DNA from: Fibrobacter sp.
GTDB taxonomy: Bacteria > Fibrobacterota > Fibrobacteria > Fibrobacterales > Fibrobacteraceae
Length of the DNA stretch: 50,639 nucleotides
Direction of reading: 5' to 3'
Assembly: GCA_024399015.1 (NCBI GenBank)
Contig: JAKSIC010000022.1
Location: forward strand, 1 to 50,639
Under the pieces are notes generated by a model. The model was not told the DNA's origin. It did not search any database and was given only the letters and a program-made list of their open reading frames with translations. This document shows, piece by piece, positions 18,733 through 25,431 of this stretch. The stretch's first letter is position 1; each line of letters begins with the position of its first letter. Position numbers and translations under genes: made by a program.

Positions 18733-19188
18733 TTATGGACTTTCGTAATCGTTTTCTTTTAGGACTTCCGTCATTTGATCATAGAGCTTTTCCACCTCGG
18801 ACGTATCTTTTCCTTCTTTTTTCATTTGATGGATTTTCAAAGCTCGATCAAAATGTTCATCCATATTGTCATCAGCTTCAAACGGATGCTTATCCAAAGA
18901 TTCCACTGATTCTTTCAGTGTATAAAAGCGCAACTTATAATGAACAGGAATTAACAGGAAAACCCAATAGCCTACACTAAACAAAACCCAGTATACAAAG
19001 TCTATTGTTTTCCATTTAAAAGAAATGCCATCAAGACCGAAAAAAAACATGCCAAAGCAAAAGGGTAATGTTGCTAACCAAACTTTATACTTAAAGGATT
19101 CGTCTTCATACCGTCTTTTTGTTAAAAACCAACTCAAGACAACAGGAAATAAAGTCAAGAAAAGCCAGACAACTTCAGACCAATCCAT
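18733..19188 (-). CDS. Small membrane protein, unknown function, AT-rich
   Basis: The protein has an N-terminal half with three hydrophobic segments (about VVWLFLTLFPVVLSWFL, WLATLPFCFGMFFFGL and FVYWVLFSVGYWVFLLIP in order) and a charged, helical cytoplasmic tail ending in EVEKLYDQMTEVLKEN. The frame opens at GTG 19206, but ATG 19188 has a better-spaced GGGGAG upstream. It begins about 25 bases after the motor operon on the same strand and could be its last gene. However, its base composition is clearly more AT-rich than the motor genes, so it may be an unrelated insertion. I do not recognise a family. Confidence 0.65.
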   Translation of the reverse strand: MDWSEVVWLFLTLFPVVLSWFLTKRRYEDESFKYKVWLATLPFCFGMFFFGLDGISFKWKTIDFVYWVLFSVGYWVFLLIPVHYKLRFYTLKESVESLDKHPFEADDNMDEHFDRALKIHQMKKEGKDTSEVEKLYDQMTEVLKENDYESP

Positions 19189-19213
19189 CAACTTCTTACT
19201 CCCCACCTAGAAT

Positions 19214-19873
19214 CTATTTCTTGTCTTGGGGTACGAGGCGTTCCACAATGCGGAACAGGTCGTTATAGATCTCCAGGAAGTCTTCAATCCAAATGGGGTC
19301 ACGCTCGCCCACCACATGGAAGGTTTCTTCCAGAGTATGGCGTGCATTATAGGGACCCACCAAGGTACCTTCGGGCTGGGTAAAGCCACCCTGCTGGTAT
19401 GCGGTTACTGCAGCCTGGCGGGCACGATAACTACGGCGGAGTCGAGCAATCAAGGCGCCACGCAAAGAAAGCAATTCTTCGTGGGCGGCAATGGCGTTAC
19501 CATCCTTGACCCAGGATTCAACCACATTCAAGCGACGGAGAATGGTATCCCTTTCGGTGTTGGGAATAAGCATTCGCTTATCGGCAAGAGTCTTCTTGAT
19601 CTGTTCAGAAATTCCACCCAGGATTTGTTCGTTCCAGAACACCATGGGATTTTCTGCAAAGCGGCTAGAATCGTCGGCCTTAGGCGTGTGAGTTGCAATC
19701 CAGCGATCAAGTTTATCAGCCACCATGCCAGCTTCGGGCAAGCGGTCCACAGCCACATATTCGCCGGCGCGGTTCAGCAGGTTGTCCGCATAGACCATAC
19801 GCCAGTGCGGCAGCTTTCCGGTCTTACGGATAGCGTCGATATTCTGGCGAAGATTTTCTAAACGTTCCTGCAT
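19214..19873 (-). CDS. Unknown soluble protein of the motor operon
   Basis: The 219-residue protein has no signal peptide or membrane helix and appears all-helical: helices with many Arg/Glu/Leu (MQERLENLRQNIDAIRKTGK, RRSYRARQAAVTAYQQGG), a middle region with RLNVVESWVKDGNAIAAHEELL, and a C-terminal segment FLEIYNDLFRIVERLVPQ. I know no matching family. Its start codon follows the stop of the MotB/OmpA-like gene with no intervening base, indicating coupled translation and a likely stoichiometric role with the motor proteins. A cytoplasmic accessory or regulator of the motor is the simplest guess; nothing in the sequence suggests a nuclease or helicase. Confidence 0.75.
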   Translation of the reverse strand: MQERLENLRQNIDAIRKTGKLPHWRMVYADNLLNRAGEYVAVDRLPEAGMVADKLDRWIATHTPKADDSSRFAENPMVFWNEQILGGISEQIKKTLADKRMLIPNTERDTILRRLNVVESWVKDGNAIAAHEELLSLRGALIARLRRSYRARQAAVTAYQQGGFTQPEGTLVGPYNARHTLEETFHVVGERDPIWIEDFLEIYNDLFRIVERLVPQDKK

Positions 19874-20509
19874 TTATTTCTTTTCCATCATCTGGAGCGG
19901 AGTCACACCGATTTCCACACGACGATTCAAGCGGCGGTGTTCTTCACTGTCGTTGGGATACTTGGGCTGATGTTCGCCAAAGCCTGCGGCAAAGAGACGT
20001 TCCGGCGGGAAGCCTTCCTTAATCAAGGTCTTCACCACGTTCACAGCACGTTCGGTAGAAAGATTCCAGTTGGTATAGGTCTTGGACTTCACCGGAGTAT
20101 CGTCGGTAAAGCCGCTGACCATGATCACATCGGTAGAATCCAGAGCTTCCAGGAGGCCCTTGCTAATGCCCTTGATGACGCCCACACCTTCGTTGGTCAA
20201 GTCGGCACCGTTGATGGGGAAAAGGAAACTGGCCTGGATCTGGATCTTACCATCTTCCAAGGCGATAAGGCCCGCTTCAATGGAAGTCTGCAAGCTCTTG
20301 GAAAGGAGCGCATTGCGTTCTGCGGCAATCTTTCGCATTTCTTCCTGGCAGCTCAACACTTCTTCTTCGGTACGGGTAAGGTCTTCGGCCTTCTGTTCCT
20401 TGAGGGTGGCCATGGCGACAAACGCCAAGATGAACAAAGACACCAATGCGATGCCAAGGTCCGTGTAGGCCATCCAAGGATTGTTGTTTTCGTCCTTGCG
20501 GAACCGCAT
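19874..20509 (-). CDS. MotB/OmpA-type stator protein (ZorB-like)
   Basis: The 211-residue protein has a short N-terminus, one membrane helix (about 14-36) preceded by NPWMAYTDLGIALVSLF, where D17 corresponds to the ion-carrying aspartate of MotB, TolR, ExbD and ZorB. A periplasmic coiled linker (38-75) leads to a complete OmpA-like peptidoglycan-binding domain (about 90-205), with GFTDDTPV, NWNLSTERAVNVV, AAGFGEHQPKYPN and NRRVEIG. It pairs with the MotA-like protein encoded 3 bases upstream. Length is near that of ZorB (about 200-250). The organism-level role is unknown. Confidence 0.93.
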   Translation of the reverse strand: MRFRKDENNNPWMAYTDLGIALVSLFILAFVAMATLKEQKAEDLTRTEEEVLSCQEEMRKIAAERNALLSKSLQTSIEAGLIALEDGKIQIQASFLFPINGADLTNEGVGVIKGISKGLLEALDSTDVIMVSGFTDDTPVKSKTYTNWNLSTERAVNVVKTLIKEGFPPERLFAAGFGEHQPKYPNDSEEHRRLNRRVEIGVTPLQMMEKK

Positions 20510-20512
20510 GGA

Positions 20513-22327
20513 TTATCCCTCCACCTTTTCTGCGGAAGCGGACGGAGCCATGGCGGCACCGCGCTGAGTCTGTTCCAGGACTTCCAGGAGGATTTCCTGA
20601 GTCTTGACAGCGTTTTCCATAAGCACTTCGCTGGCGCGTTCGTGGAAGGCTTCCAGAGACTGGTTGAGGTGTTCCACAAAGTTTTCTTCTTCTTCGTGTT
20701 CAGCAGTATCGCCGCTGAGCTTTTCAAGAATGGTTTCCAGACCGGCGCGAAGCATTTCAAGGTTAGCGCTAAGTTCGGACTGGTTCACGCGCATAAGTTC
20801 TGCGGTTTCCACGATGTTTCCGCCAAGAGCGTCGGTAGCTTCCTTTTCCTTGACCACGCGGTTGTCGATGCTTTCAGTGAGAGCCTTCTGGGCTTCAAGC
20901 AGCACTGCGGAAGTTTCGGAAAGCTTCTGGAAGGCAGCCAGAATATCGTTGGAAAGAGTTCCAAGCTTTTCGGACACGGAAGCAGAAAGTTCCGCAGAGC
21001 CAGCCTGAGCCTTTTCTGCAACCTGAAGAGCCACATTCTTGAGAGTTTCCAGACCTTCGCGCTGGGCATCCACATTGGCAGTAGTCTTTTCTTCGAGACG
21101 CTGCATAAATTCGTTCCACTGAACATTGGACTGCTTGACCTGATCGGCAACAGAAGCACCGATGGTTTCGGTAGTGCCGGACATTGCTGCAGCGGAAGCA
21201 GAAGCAACACCATCAAGGCCAGCCTTCACATCGGAAGCAACCTTAGCCAAGGCATTTTCCACATTGCCGGAAACGCCCTGCAGGCCTTCCTTCACGCCGC
21301 CAGCGATATCGCCGAGGCCAGCGTTCAATGCAGAAGACAAACCGTTCAGCTTGTCGTCCAACTTTGCCGGGATGGATTCCACAGAAGTAGACAAAGCCTT
21401 CACGCTCTGTTCCATAGGAGCAAAGGCGCCATTAAGAGAAGAGCTGACGGAATCACCAAGATTCTGGACAGCACCGTTCATGCCGCTCACCACAGTTGCG
21501 AGAGAATCGCTGAAGGACTTTGTGGTGTTGGACATTTCAGCAGAAATCTTTGCGGTAGCGGAAGTGAGTTCCTCGCCCACCATAGCAACAACGCCGCTGA
21601 GGCCTTCCTGCACAGCGGAAGCAACCTTTGCCAAGTTTTCTTCGACGGAATCAAAGAGGCGACCAAGTTCATCCTTGCTCTGTTCCACTTCGTCGTCAGA
21701 ACCCTGGAGGATCAAGGTCAATGCATCAAGGCGAGCCATGAAACCGTTAAGGCTAGCATTCAGCAAAGTACGGCTGGCATTCAAAATCAAGGCAGCAAAC
21801 AAACCGCAAAGAGAAGTTCCGAAGATTCCCTTCATGCCCTGGAAGAGAAGCTGGATGGTATCAAGAGTACCCTGTGTGGTAGAGTTGTCAATGGCGCCAC
21901 CGGCTGTTGCAACGGAATACATCAAACCGAAGAAGGTACCCATGAGGCCCAGAAGAATCACGGTGCTACCGGCGCTGCGGGGAACGGAGATTCCCACGTT
22001 GCTGTTCAACACTTCGTAAGCGATGGGAGAATCCAGGCGGATCTTCTTGGAAACCAGCTGGCGGGCAAGAGCGATACGCTTTGCAACCACACCGTCACCA
22101 GACACGCTAAAGGAACCGCGGCTTTCGCAAGCATCAAGAACTTCAGTTTCTTGAGAGATCTGCTTCAACTTCTTGAGAGCCACCACCTGTTCAATCAAGA
22201 ACACGGCGAAGATGGCGCACAGAATCACCCAGCCGAAAAGCGGAGCACCAAAGTAGCAAGCACCGGCTACGAGAACCGCAAAGCCTGCGATGGTGAGCAA
22301 CAAAGTGGTCGTGAAAGCATTTTTCAT
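20513..22327 (-). CDS. MotA/TolQ/ExbB-type channel protein with long helical tail (ZorA-like)
   Basis: The 604-residue protein has four predicted membrane helices (about 5-25, 29-50, 118-142 and 165-188) with the channel motifs GLMGTFFGLMYSVA and GIFGTSLCGLFAAL, the equivalents of MotA helix 3 and 4. The rest, about 400 residues, is a Ser/Ala/Val/Gly-rich helical tail with degenerate repeats (GLSGVVAMV, GLQGVSGNV, GLDGVASAS) and Leu heptads towards the end. ExbB/TolQ proteins lack such a tail; ZorA of Zorya and some MotA relatives have one. It is followed 3 bases later by its MotB/OmpA partner. Shine-Dalgarno CAGGT supports ATG 22327. An ion-driven torque or force generator is inferred. Confidence 0.92.
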   Translation of the reverse strand: MKNAFTTTLLLTIAGFAVLVAGACYFGAPLFGWVILCAIFAVFLIEQVVALKKLKQISQETEVLDACESRGSFSVSGDGVVAKRIALARQLVSKKIRLDSPIAYEVLNSNVGISVPRSAGSTVILLGLMGTFFGLMYSVATAGGAIDNSTTQGTLDTIQLLFQGMKGIFGTSLCGLFAALILNASRTLLNASLNGFMARLDALTLILQGSDDEVEQSKDELGRLFDSVEENLAKVASAVQEGLSGVVAMVGEELTSATAKISAEMSNTTKSFSDSLATVVSGMNGAVQNLGDSVSSSLNGAFAPMEQSVKALSTSVESIPAKLDDKLNGLSSALNAGLGDIAGGVKEGLQGVSGNVENALAKVASDVKAGLDGVASASAAAMSGTTETIGASVADQVKQSNVQWNEFMQRLEEKTTANVDAQREGLETLKNVALQVAEKAQAGSAELSASVSEKLGTLSNDILAAFQKLSETSAVLLEAQKALTESIDNRVVKEKEATDALGGNIVETAELMRVNQSELSANLEMLRAGLETILEKLSGDTAEHEEEENFVEHLNQSLEAFHERASEVLMENAVKTQEILLEVLEQTQRGAAMAPSASAEKVEG

Positions 22328-22344
22328 TTTATACCTGTTTTATT

Positions 22345-23253
22345 TTAGGCCTTATGGTCGGCCGTGGTTTCAAACAAATTCAACTGACCGCGAGAGAACC
22401 CGCGGAGGAACAAAGCCCACTTGCTCTGGTACCATTCAATAATCTGAATGGTAAGACCGCGGGCATAATCACAAAAATCATCTGTAAAGGCCAGGAAGCC
22501 GTTTTCGTATGCGTAGTGAGGATTCCAGTAACGGCCTACATTGCGGGCGCAGCTAGCTGCGGTGCTGTAATAGCGAGCCGGGCTCTTTGTTGCAAAGGCG
22601 GCTGCAAAGCGCTTCTTGGCCAAGGCGTTCAAGGAACTGCGGAGAGACACAATCATGGCGTTCTCCTTATCGCGCAAGGAGGCTTCCAGACTGGGGAGCA
22701 ACTTGGACACGGCGTCCACAGCACTTTCGGAGTGCCAGTACTTGCAAAGCTTTTCCTGCAGCTGCATGACGCGGCCGTGCATTCTCACAAACAGAGGTTC
22801 CGCATCGCTGACCAGCAAATGGATAGTTGCGGAATAGAAGGCGTTGATATCCTGCTTGCTGTTCTTCACGTTAAGAAGCCAGCCCTTTTCCTCGTCGTGC
22901 TGCATGAACTCGCCGCCTTCCAGGAGCAGGCGCATCACTTCTTCCGTGGAGAAACGTTGCATCCACTTGGCGCGGAATTCGTCGTACAACTTGTTGGCGT
23001 CGGCGATGATCTGAGGGAAGCTGGCGTCGGCAAGTTTCCACGCCGTTTCGCTATAGGAAATCAATTCCGAAGAGCCCACATTCACAGAGGGGTCATTCAA
23101 CATGGCGTCCAGATGTTCGTAAAGAACAATGGACCAGGTGACCATCATGGACTGGGACAAGTTCGCAACCATGGACGACCTGTTAGGGCGCACCGAGAGA
23201 CGGACACTGTTGCCCGTCATCTTACGAATGGATCTGCGAAAATTCTCTTGCAC
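22345..23253 (-). CDS. Unknown soluble protein of the motor operon
   Basis: The protein of about 302 residues has no signal peptide or clear membrane helix. It looks mainly helical and is rich in aromatic residues towards the end (RYWNPHYAYENGFLAF, IIEWYQSKWALFLRGF). An AAGAGG Shine-Dalgarno with 5-base spacing favours GTG 23253 over the adjacent TTG 23256. It lies 9 bases after the beta-helix gene and 17 before the ZorA-like gene. No family was recognised. A basic, Arg/Ser-rich N-terminus (RRSIRKMTGNSVRLSVRPNR) could contact membrane or nucleic acid, but this is speculation. The position directly before the channel gene suggests a dedicated motor component. Confidence 0.75.
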   Translation of the reverse strand: MQENFRRSIRKMTGNSVRLSVRPNRSSMVANLSQSMMVTWSIVLYEHLDAMLNDPSVNVGSSELISYSETAWKLADASFPQIIADANKLYDEFRAKWMQRFSTEEVMRLLLEGGEFMQHDEEKGWLLNVKNSKQDINAFYSATIHLLVSDAEPLFVRMHGRVMQLQEKLCKYWHSESAVDAVSKLLPSLEASLRDKENAMIVSLRSSLNALAKKRFAAAFATKSPARYYSTAASCARNVGRYWNPHYAYENGFLAFTDDFCDYARGLTIQIIEWYQSKWALFLRGFSRGQLNLFETTADHKA

Positions 23254-23262
23254 CAAAACCTC

Positions 23263-23982
23263 TTAGAAAGCTGTTTCGATTCGCTGCCACACGTTACGTG
23301 TGACGCGCTTACCGCTCTTGGCCATGTCTTCAGATTCCTTGCGGATATCTGCTTCAAGATTGTTCTTGATCAAGCTCTGGTCTCCGTCAAACTTGCCACC
23401 AGCTTCCAGATACAAGCCATACACATTGTTGGAAATCTTTGTATCTGCAGAAAGTACGTGGCCTGCACGAACAGAAAGAGCAAAGCGGTTGCGAACGAAT
23501 TCGCAACGGGACAAGAAAATTTCAGGAACGTCGTCCACCCAAAGTCCATAGTAGTTGTTCACGAACTTCACGTTTTCGAAAATACCCTTGGAACGGAAAA
23601 CCGTATTGCGGAATGCGTTTTCCACCACCAGGTGCTTGATTTCAAAAGGACGGTTGGAAGAAACAAAATGGAGGCCATTCCAGCTACCGCTGGAGTCGGC
23701 ACTGCGGAAAACAATGGGCTTTACTTCAGAACCAACAATCTTTACGGTACCGCGAAGCATCAACTTTGCATATTCGCCCATAAGTACCGTAACACCAGGT
23801 TCAACCACCAAGGTATCATTTGCAGAAAAGACCATACCCTGTTCCAGGATATACGGGCTATCCGCTTCGACAAGTTTAACCTTGCCGTTTTCAATTGCCG
23901 GGAACGGCAACTCACCAGCCACTGCAGAACCTACAGCGACCAGGGCGGCCATGGCAATGATGCTACGAATTTTAGCGAGCAT
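23263..23982 (-). CDS. Secreted right-handed beta-helix protein
   Basis: The 239-residue protein has a signal peptide (about 1-22, ending SAVAG) and a body of short repeating strands typical of a parallel beta-helix: LVVEPGVTVLMGEYAKLMLRG, IVFRSADSSGSWNGLHFVS, FENVKFVNNYYGLWVDD, FLSRCEFVRNRFALSVR. The pattern epGvTv-L-V-GT-I-PI-F-W-GI-F is common in bacterial cell-surface proteins. The C-terminal 30 residues are charged and helical. Its ATG overlaps the stop of the lipoprotein gene (TAATG), so both are translated together. It is probably periplasmic or surface-located, a candidate extracellular part or cargo of the motor. Confidence 0.85.
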   Translation of the reverse strand: MLAKIRSIIAMAALVAVGSAVAGELPFPAIENGKVKLVEADSPYILEQGMVFSANDTLVVEPGVTVLMGEYAKLMLRGTVKIVGSEVKPIVFRSADSSGSWNGLHFVSSNRPFEIKHLVVENAFRNTVFRSKGIFENVKFVNNYYGLWVDDVPEIFLSRCEFVRNRFALSVRAGHVLSADTKISNNVYGLYLEAGGKFDGDQSLIKNNLEADIRKESEDMAKSGKRVTRNVWQRIETAF

Positions 23983-24809
23983 TAAATTTCACCTTTCAAC
24001 TTAATCTTCTGGATCACGTGCATATCAGGAATGACATTGTCGGCAACGATATCGTTTACGCTGAGGTCGCCGGTAATTTCCATAGAGACGTTGGAAATCA
24101 CGCCGTGGGTCATATCGAACAAGATGGTACCGGTACCAACGATGAAGCCCTTGCTTTCCATACGGAGGTCGGAAGACGGGTCGCCAGCTTCCTTGTACTT
24201 GATGTTCATACCGATCTTGGCCATCTGCACTCCATCGTGTGCGTACTGGTCCTGCAGGGTGAAGGACTTGTAGACCACGGTATTACCGCCGTTACCCGGA
24301 ATTTCAACGGAACGTTCCCAGGTTTCGCCCAAGGCAACGCCCTTACCCGGAAGGATGGGCTGAATCTTCAAGAACAGGCGAACAAGGTCCAGGGCCTCGG
24401 TACCCATCATGACGGAATCTTCCATCACAGGATCACTGACCACACCATCCTTGGCCATCTTGAACTGGAAATGTTCGGTGGACATGTAACGTTCCATACT
24501 GCGGAATTCTTCCACGGAACGTTTGTCAGACTTGTAGTCCACAGAGTCGATCTTCATTTCGAACTTGGCTGTGCCATTGTCGTATGCGGTCAGCAAATTA
24601 TTGGTGGCACGCACAAAAAGACGAGTATTCATTGCTTCGGGAGTACCGGACACGGTATCCATCGGCAAAATGGCATTCATGGAAGATTCGAGGGAATAGG
24701 TCTGGGAAGGAACGTTCTGGGTATTAAAGGCGAGAACGTAGTCATTTCCTTCGCAGGCACACAAAACTAAAAGAGCAGCAGAGCTGGCGCAAAATTTAAA
24801 GAAATTCAT
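23982..24809 (-). CDS. Lipoprotein, first gene of the motor operon
   Basis: ATG 24809 gives a short lipoprotein signal with lipobox LCAC (SSAALLVLCACEGND); an upstream in-frame extension to 24881 lies in the tadA terminator and is rejected. The mature part, about 255 residues, is beta-rich, with GKGVALGETWERSVEIPG, MESKGFIVGTGTILFDMTHGVISNVSMEITG and a C-terminal VIQKIKLKGEI. The last block resembles uncharacterised bacterial lipoproteins of the DUF6263 kind, but I am not sure. It opens the operon and is coupled to the beta-helix gene. An envelope anchor or sensor for the motor is a guess. Confidence 0.8.
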   Translation of the reverse strand: MNFFKFCASSAALLVLCACEGNDYVLAFNTQNVPSQTYSLESSMNAILPMDTVSGTPEAMNTRLFVRATNNLLTAYDNGTAKFEMKIDSVDYKSDKRSVEEFRSMERYMSTEHFQFKMAKDGVVSDPVMEDSVMMGTEALDLVRLFLKIQPILPGKGVALGETWERSVEIPGNGGNTVVYKSFTLQDQYAHDGVQMAKIGMNIKYKEAGDPSSDLRMESKGFIVGTGTILFDMTHGVISNVSMEITGDLSVNDIVADNVIPDMHVIQKIKLKGEI

Positions 24810-24861: not shown

Positions 24862-24888
24862 TTACACCATATCGGCACCATATTTCAA

Positions 24889-25431
24889 CTAGGTCTGGGG
24901 CGGTTTTGCACCGCTGTCACCTTTTTCCAAACGCATCTGTTGGAAAAAGCGTTTCAGAAGTCCAACACACTCTTCGGCAAAGATTCCACCAGTGACAGGA
25001 ACCGTCCTTTTCAAGGCGTTTCCGGTAATGACATCGATGGTGGTTCCGCAACCGCCGAAGCGCGTATCCCTGGAGCCGTAGACCACGCGATCCACACGGC
25101 TATTGAGAATAGCGCCGGCACACATGGGGCAAGGTTCCAGCGTTACATACAAAGTACAACCGTCCAGACGCCAGTTGTTTAGGGCGGAGGCGGCGGTACC
25201 GATGGCGAGAATTTCCGCATGGGCGGTGGCATCCTTCAGCATTTCAATCTGGTTGTGTCCGCGGCCAATAACCACGCCGTCTTTTACGATGACGCAACCG
25301 ATGGGGATTTCCTTTTCCTCAAAGGCCTTTTCTGCTTCACGAATAGCCATGCGCATAAAGCGCTGGTCCTCCTCGGCTAGGAGACGGGCAGCAATTTCCA
25401 GTTGGAATTCTTCAGAGTTAATTTCAGCCAT
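24889..25431 (-). CDS. tadA: tRNA adenosine(34) deaminase
   Basis: TadA converts A34 to inosine in tRNA-Arg(ACG). The 180-residue protein has the zinc/catalytic blocks HAEILA and LEPCPMCAGAILNSRV, with the FGGCG motif and C-terminal helix (GLLKRFFQQMR) of the bacterial enzyme. It has about 20 extra N-terminal residues before the usual MRMAIREAEKA start. A TATTTT box ends 6 bases before the ATG with TTGGTT 16 bases upstream, and no Shine-Dalgarno is seen, so a leaderless transcript is likely. It is divergent from the gltD-like gene. Confidence 0.95.
   Translation of the reverse strand: MAEINSEEFQLEIAARLLAEEDQRFMRMAIREAEKAFEEKEIPIGCVIVKDGVVIGRGHNQIEMLKDATAHAEILAIGTAASALNNWRLDGCTLYVTLEPCPMCAGAILNSRVDRVVYGSRDTRFGGCGTTIDVITGNALKRTVPVTGGIFAEECVGLLKRFFQQMRLEKGDSGAKPPQT

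Follow-up and report, generated by a model that had tools for sequence, protein, structure and literature searches.

Zorya motors are known for their part in defence against phages. Their ZorA and ZorB subunits form a 5:2 complex that binds peptidoglycan, carries a bundled tail, and sets an ion-conducting aspartate against serine or threonine residues (PMC11890865); defence by Zorya I and II depends on the tail as well as on the peptidoglycan-binding domain (PMC11890865). The defining genes of Zorya III are zorA and zorB with zorF (DUF3348) on one side and zorG (DUF2894) on the other, and a Stenotrophomonas representative lowered the plaquing of phages in E. coli (PMC8565338). Here, an operon of Fibrobacter was compared with these systems and followed across the class Fibrobacteria. 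What is new is that the channel half of its ZorA-type subunit (A) and its ZorB-type subunit (B) are missing in six sampled genera while the tail of A and the two flanking genes (F and G) persist.

Gene content of the operon

The window, i.e., the whole stretch of DNA analyzed (50,639 nt), carries six tightly packed minus-strand genes at positions 19214-24809 in its list of open reading frames, given here in order of transcription:

23982..24809, minus strand: lipoprotein, operon gene 1; lipobox LCAC; weak DUF6263 similarity (2.1e-05, below the cut-off)
23263..23982, minus strand: secreted right-handed beta-helix protein, 239 aa; N-terminal signal; Beta_helix match (6.7e-05, just under the cut-off)
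22345..23256, minus strand: F, cytoplasmic helical protein, 303 aa, ZorF/DUF3348-like by hhalign; AF2 model (pLDDT 82) a long helical bundle
20513..22327, minus strand: A, ZorA-type channel subunit, 604 aa; transmembrane (TM) helices within residues 1-190; ZorA3 by hhalign (3.4e-14)
19874..20509, minus strand: B, ZorB3-type MotB/OmpA subunit, 211 aa; ZorB3 (8.6e-44), OmpA (5.9e-16), TM Asp17
19214..19873, minus strand: G, cytoplasmic helical protein, 219 aa, ZorG/DUF2894-like by hhalign (E 3.2e-4); C-terminal GPxN motif

The six coupled genes of the initial annotation were reproduced in both coordinates and tight spacing (gaps of 0, 3, 17, and 6 bases and one 1-base overlap), and their order was the same at nearly all loci of the family Fibrobacteraceae. 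The lipoprotein starts at 24809 (MNFFKFC...LCAC) within a reading frame that opens at 24881, and tadA (24889-25431) lies 79 bases upstream of the operon. The first two products carry a lipobox and a signal-like N terminus, respectively; no TM helix or signal was predicted for F or G. A 157-aa two-TM reading frame that follows G (window 18733-19206, minus strand) has a place that was not conserved in relatives, and a relative of it sits upstream of tadA at L035:4625-5056.

The predicted motor pair

A and B are homologues of the ZorA/ZorB ion-motor subunits. The hydrophobic helices of A lay near residues 8-28, 33-51, 122-140, and 164-182 (the first weak in the window copy), in a channel half of residues 1 to about 190 that is followed by a long, compositionally coiled cytoplasmic tail (about 210-604) with a conserved tip (about 480-590). 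When a profile of A was compared with solved structures, ZorA came first (8qyd, 2.1e-12); flagellar MotA, ExbB, and TolQ were not among the matches at E-values up to 0.01, and the remaining matches were apolipoprotein-like and other helical proteins aligned to the tail. Profile comparisons with ZorA3 (DUF802) proteins of Burkholderiales gave 8e-13 and 3.4e-14, while single-sequence PADLOC matches of the channel part were weak and spread over ZorA1/2/3; the tail tip bore a marginal likeness to the end of ZorA3 (score 19.7, against a decoy maximum of 18.6). For B, the best PADLOC match was ZorB3, followed at a distance by ZorB1 (1.6e-20). Its TM helix contains a T16-D17 motif whose aspartate was found in 86 of 86 homologues, and this residue, together with T131 and S172 of A, was invariant in motor-bearing sequences. 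The ZorAB-like pair that had been proposed from the sequence is thereby supported, as are the TM aspartate and the peptidoglycan-binding domain that had been ascribed to B. FSU_0151, a 24-kDa OmpA protein in the membrane proteome of F. succinogenes S85, was considered as B and dropped for its misfit in GRAVY and pI.

F and G as probable relatives of ZorF and ZorG

Zorya III loci were found with B as the query on plasmids of Burkholderiales and Rhodocyclales. All five annotated plasmid loci had the order DUF3348-DUF802-OmpA-DUF2894, the same as F-A-B-G in Fibrobacter, and lay among metabolic genes. (In PADLOC-DB, the name ZorG stands for the DUF3348 model and ZorF for the DUF2894 model, as seen for the L051 proteins, which is the reverse of the PADLOC paper [PMC8565338].) As single sequences, neither F nor G matched any model of Pfam, NCBIfam, or PADLOC; across 12 genomes, the Pfam model PF11828 (DUF3348) had no match to F even at an E-value of 10, and PF11445 (DUF2894) had none at the G locus. 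Profiles of 90 F and 89 G sequences from Fibrobacteria were compared by hhalign with a small reference set of 11 Zorya III sequences from plasmids and megaplasmids, with 100 seven-column block-shuffled profiles as decoys. F aligned colinearly with DUF3348 at a score of 25.5 (decoy maximum, 19.4) and G with DUF2894 at 36.0 (decoy maximum, 31.6), each above 100 of 100 decoys. The alignment of G was colinear end to end over 172 columns and took in both an N-terminal R..YA...L..RA block and the C-terminal GPxN block. The mismatched pair of G and the DUF3348 profile also reached E-values of about 0.002-0.007, absolute E-values being soft for such helical proteins; given these cross-pair values, F and G are termed ZorF/ZorG-like mainly on gene order and colinearity. 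By these comparisons, F is probably related to ZorF (DUF3348) and G to ZorG (DUF2894). Their earlier annotation as unknown soluble proteins was incomplete. Fold searches with the AF2 models of F and G (pLDDT 77 for the latter) returned generic helical-bundle matches, none diagnostic, and a function was not read from the best match of F (a dynamin-like stalk, Z 9.7), which is below the level that is meaningful for helical bundles.

Since F and G lie out of reach of the Pfam models for DUF3348 and DUF2894, we describe the operon, on its sequence similarities, as Zorya III-like and do not claim proven membership of Zorya III. Common to it and the Zorya III of Burkholderiales and Xanthomonadales are the F-A-B-G order, the ZorB3 score, a long-tailed ZorA-type channel, and the remote colinear likeness of F and G; it differs in that (i) F and G lie beyond the Pfam and PADLOC models, (ii) lipoprotein and beta-helix genes are added, and (iii) the operon belongs to the core genome of Fibrobacteria, is inherited vertically, and also occurs in motorless versions. 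With Zorya I and II it shares the ZorA/ZorB architecture of cytoplasmic tail and peptidoglycan-binding domain (PMC11890865) but not ZorC, ZorD, or ZorE, for which PADLOC found no match in the operon, as had been noted initially. The further suggestion that this kind of operon was undescribed probably does not hold, as its core F-A-B-G has the published gene order of Zorya III and probably its gene set.

Distribution and inheritance

A was present in 75 of 80 congeneric genomes, and the five without it were 62-88% complete. The order tadA-lipoprotein-beta-helix-F-A-B-G recurred across Fibrobacteraceae, which upholds the earlier view of a single conserved operon with envelope partners; the beta-helix gene was kept at nearly all loci of the family, and the lipoprotein gene kept its place in the family as well as in genus g14. 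One genome, G145 (L046, L139), had the operon without the beta-helix gene and with the motor genes intact. Protein distances of all six genes followed those of the flanking genes tadA and argH (rho 0.76-0.86; 0 of 200 permutations as high), and the mean identity of B was 80%, compared with 76% for TadA.

Of 24 class members sampled, every one had F and 23 had G; the phylum's other classes yielded neither. When 84,980 species genomes were scanned with short conserved peptides, which distant forms of F would escape, F-related loci all belonged to Fibrobacterota by record title. Two metagenome-assembled genomes each had two different F loci (L082/L090, L093/L108; Horse_feces13, RGIG8275), explained by either bin mixing or a second copy. 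Elsewhere in the class, other families lacked the lipoprotein and beta-helix genes or had different ones; the neighbours there, named from their sequences and shared between families, included a pseudouridine synthase resembling RluD, a DNA polymerase III delta-like gene, greA, and argJ, which we take to be housekeeping genes. The lipoprotein and beta-helix genes are thus lineage-specific additions, and the operon is a core, vertically inherited one, which is atypical for a defence system. The supposed restriction to relatives of Fibrobacter fits the six-gene form, found only in Fibrobacteraceae.

Relatives without the motor

Six sampled genera had neither the channel half of A nor B, and retained F, a membrane-anchored tail, and G. 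These motorless genera comprise the termite-associated Fibrimonas, its sister genus, and members of three other families of the class. In g2 and g4 (the latter including "Candidatus Fibrimonas"), A was reduced to 168-244 aa with one TM helix and the conserved tip; several of these proteins (L058:6974-7672, L059:6514-7020, L061:6519-7061) had a PKIEIPKIE-like repeat spacer, rich in proline, as if replacing the coiled tail. In families f3 and f4 (g13, g14, and g15), A measured about 410-570 aa and comprised the tail and either one or two TM helices; in family f5, A was poorly delineated and the picture is less clear. TM3-TM4 of A and the orthologue of B were missing together in every motorless genome, and F and G flanked the shortened A. 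Scores for B were 1e-54 or better where the motor was present, and at best 9e-24, mainly from the OmpA domain, where it was not. Several motorless genomes are metagenome assemblies, but the same pattern was seen in many genomes and in contiguous loci. Upstream of F in motorless genera, a beta-helix homologue was sought and not found, the gene there being thioredoxin-like: in g2 and g4, a secreted thioredoxin/TlpA-like protein is encoded directly upstream of F, where the lipoprotein and beta-helix genes would be (L058:5673-6203, L059:7788-8330, L061:5201-5782), with a C-P-H-C type motif, or C-I-S in one.

The F/tail/G module is separable from the motor, given that it persists where the channel half and B are absent. 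For g2 and g4, loss of the motor is the simplest reading of the sequences, since family f2, of the same taxonomic order, has the channel and B, and the F tree places g2 and g4 inside that order (99/96); their position outside f2 had support of only 85/82, with long-branch warnings. For f3 to f5, loss and primary absence of the motor are inseparable on present data. The joint retention of tip, F, and G after motor loss is the best argument that the three would act together.

Proposed role and alternatives

We propose, with a probability of roughly 0.55, that the operon encodes a resident motor, part of the core genome and related to that of Zorya III, which senses the state of the envelope, is anchored to peptidoglycan, and acts on F and G. 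By analogy with ZorAB, A and B would assemble into a 5:2 ion channel-motor in the inner membrane (PMC11890865), tied to peptidoglycan by the OmpA domain of B, with ions passing at Asp17 of B against Thr131 and Ser172 of A. The ring of A would then turn or strain the bundled cytoplasmic tail, whose conserved tip may be the docking site for F and G, as suggested by their joint conservation, including after motor loss. The lipoprotein and the beta-helix protein, judging from their signals, may serve as accessory anchors or sensors on the envelope side. The machine would sense the condition of the cell wall or envelope and pass it on to F and G as a mechanical change, in what we infer to be a housekeeping function.

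Such a resident envelope-to-cytoplasm role is favoured over conventional defence because the operon is core, B evolves slowly, and the motor is dispensable. A genuine Zorya III anti-phage system fixed in Fibrobacteria, in which the motor would sense damage to the envelope by phage and F and G would be regulators or effectors, is nonetheless the strongest competitor, though we regard it as rather doubtful. The gene order and, probably, the gene set are those of Zorya III, Zorya III lowers plaquing in E. coli (PMC8565338), and Zorya I and II depend on the same two elements, peptidoglycan-binding domain and tail (PMC11890865). Yet the operon is vertically inherited and slow-evolving among housekeeping genes, whereas defence islands are patchy; none of its products was recognisable as a nuclease or another toxic effector; and several genera dispense with the motor and keep F, tail, and G. 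The resident machine may protect against phage in addition to its housekeeping, given that the Stenotrophomonas Zorya III protects E. coli (PMC8565338).

The reading in which the operon encodes an envelope machine that transmits force in adhesion, secretion, or surface motility, and drives the lipoprotein and beta-helix protein as its outer parts, appears improbable. In its favour are the presence of both genes in the operon of almost all Fibrobacteraceae and a tendency seen with flagella: FliG was absent in 8 of 10 motor-bearing genera and present in 5 of 6 motorless genera (Fisher p 0.035, uncorrected for shared descent). However, the beta-helix and lipoprotein genes are not retained where F, tail, and G are, G145 keeps the motor without the beta-helix gene, and the long conserved part of A faces the cytoplasm. 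The exceptions to the FliG pattern were g3 and g8, with both FliG and motor, and g15, with neither; as two genera carry both, a unique role in replacing flagella was not adopted.

An ordinary ExbBD/TolQR or flagellar stator variant is very improbable: A did match Pfam MotA_ExbB (0.015), but weakly, below the family cut-off and as the weakest of 7 such loci in the genome (ExbB/TolQ signals at the other PF01618 loci were stronger or comparable), solved-structure matches pointed elsewhere, and B, which shares with MotAB/PomAB its TM aspartate and OmpA-type peptidoglycan-binding domain, scores as ZorB3 and is not of the ExbD/TolR type. ExbBD, TolQR, and GldLM belong with A-B to the same ion-driven motor superfamily. 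Where the stator has its FliG-facing interface, A has the long tail; FliG_C had no match in genomes G000, G101, and G144, and the genome of the window is without FliG.

Returning to the resident machine, a more tentative extension is that F, tail, and G might be an old housekeeping module of the membrane, facing the cytoplasm, to which the motor is a detachable drive, and that Zorya III defence might be an adaptation of an envelope-sensing machine.

Implications

If the proposed reading is true, a class-wide core Zorya III-like motor, together with the motorless genera, would separate the part played by the motor from that of the tail and its partners. This suggests that the defence system may have its origin in an envelope machine with a housekeeping role, and Fibrobacterota would be a new phylum where relatives of ZorF and ZorG can be studied.
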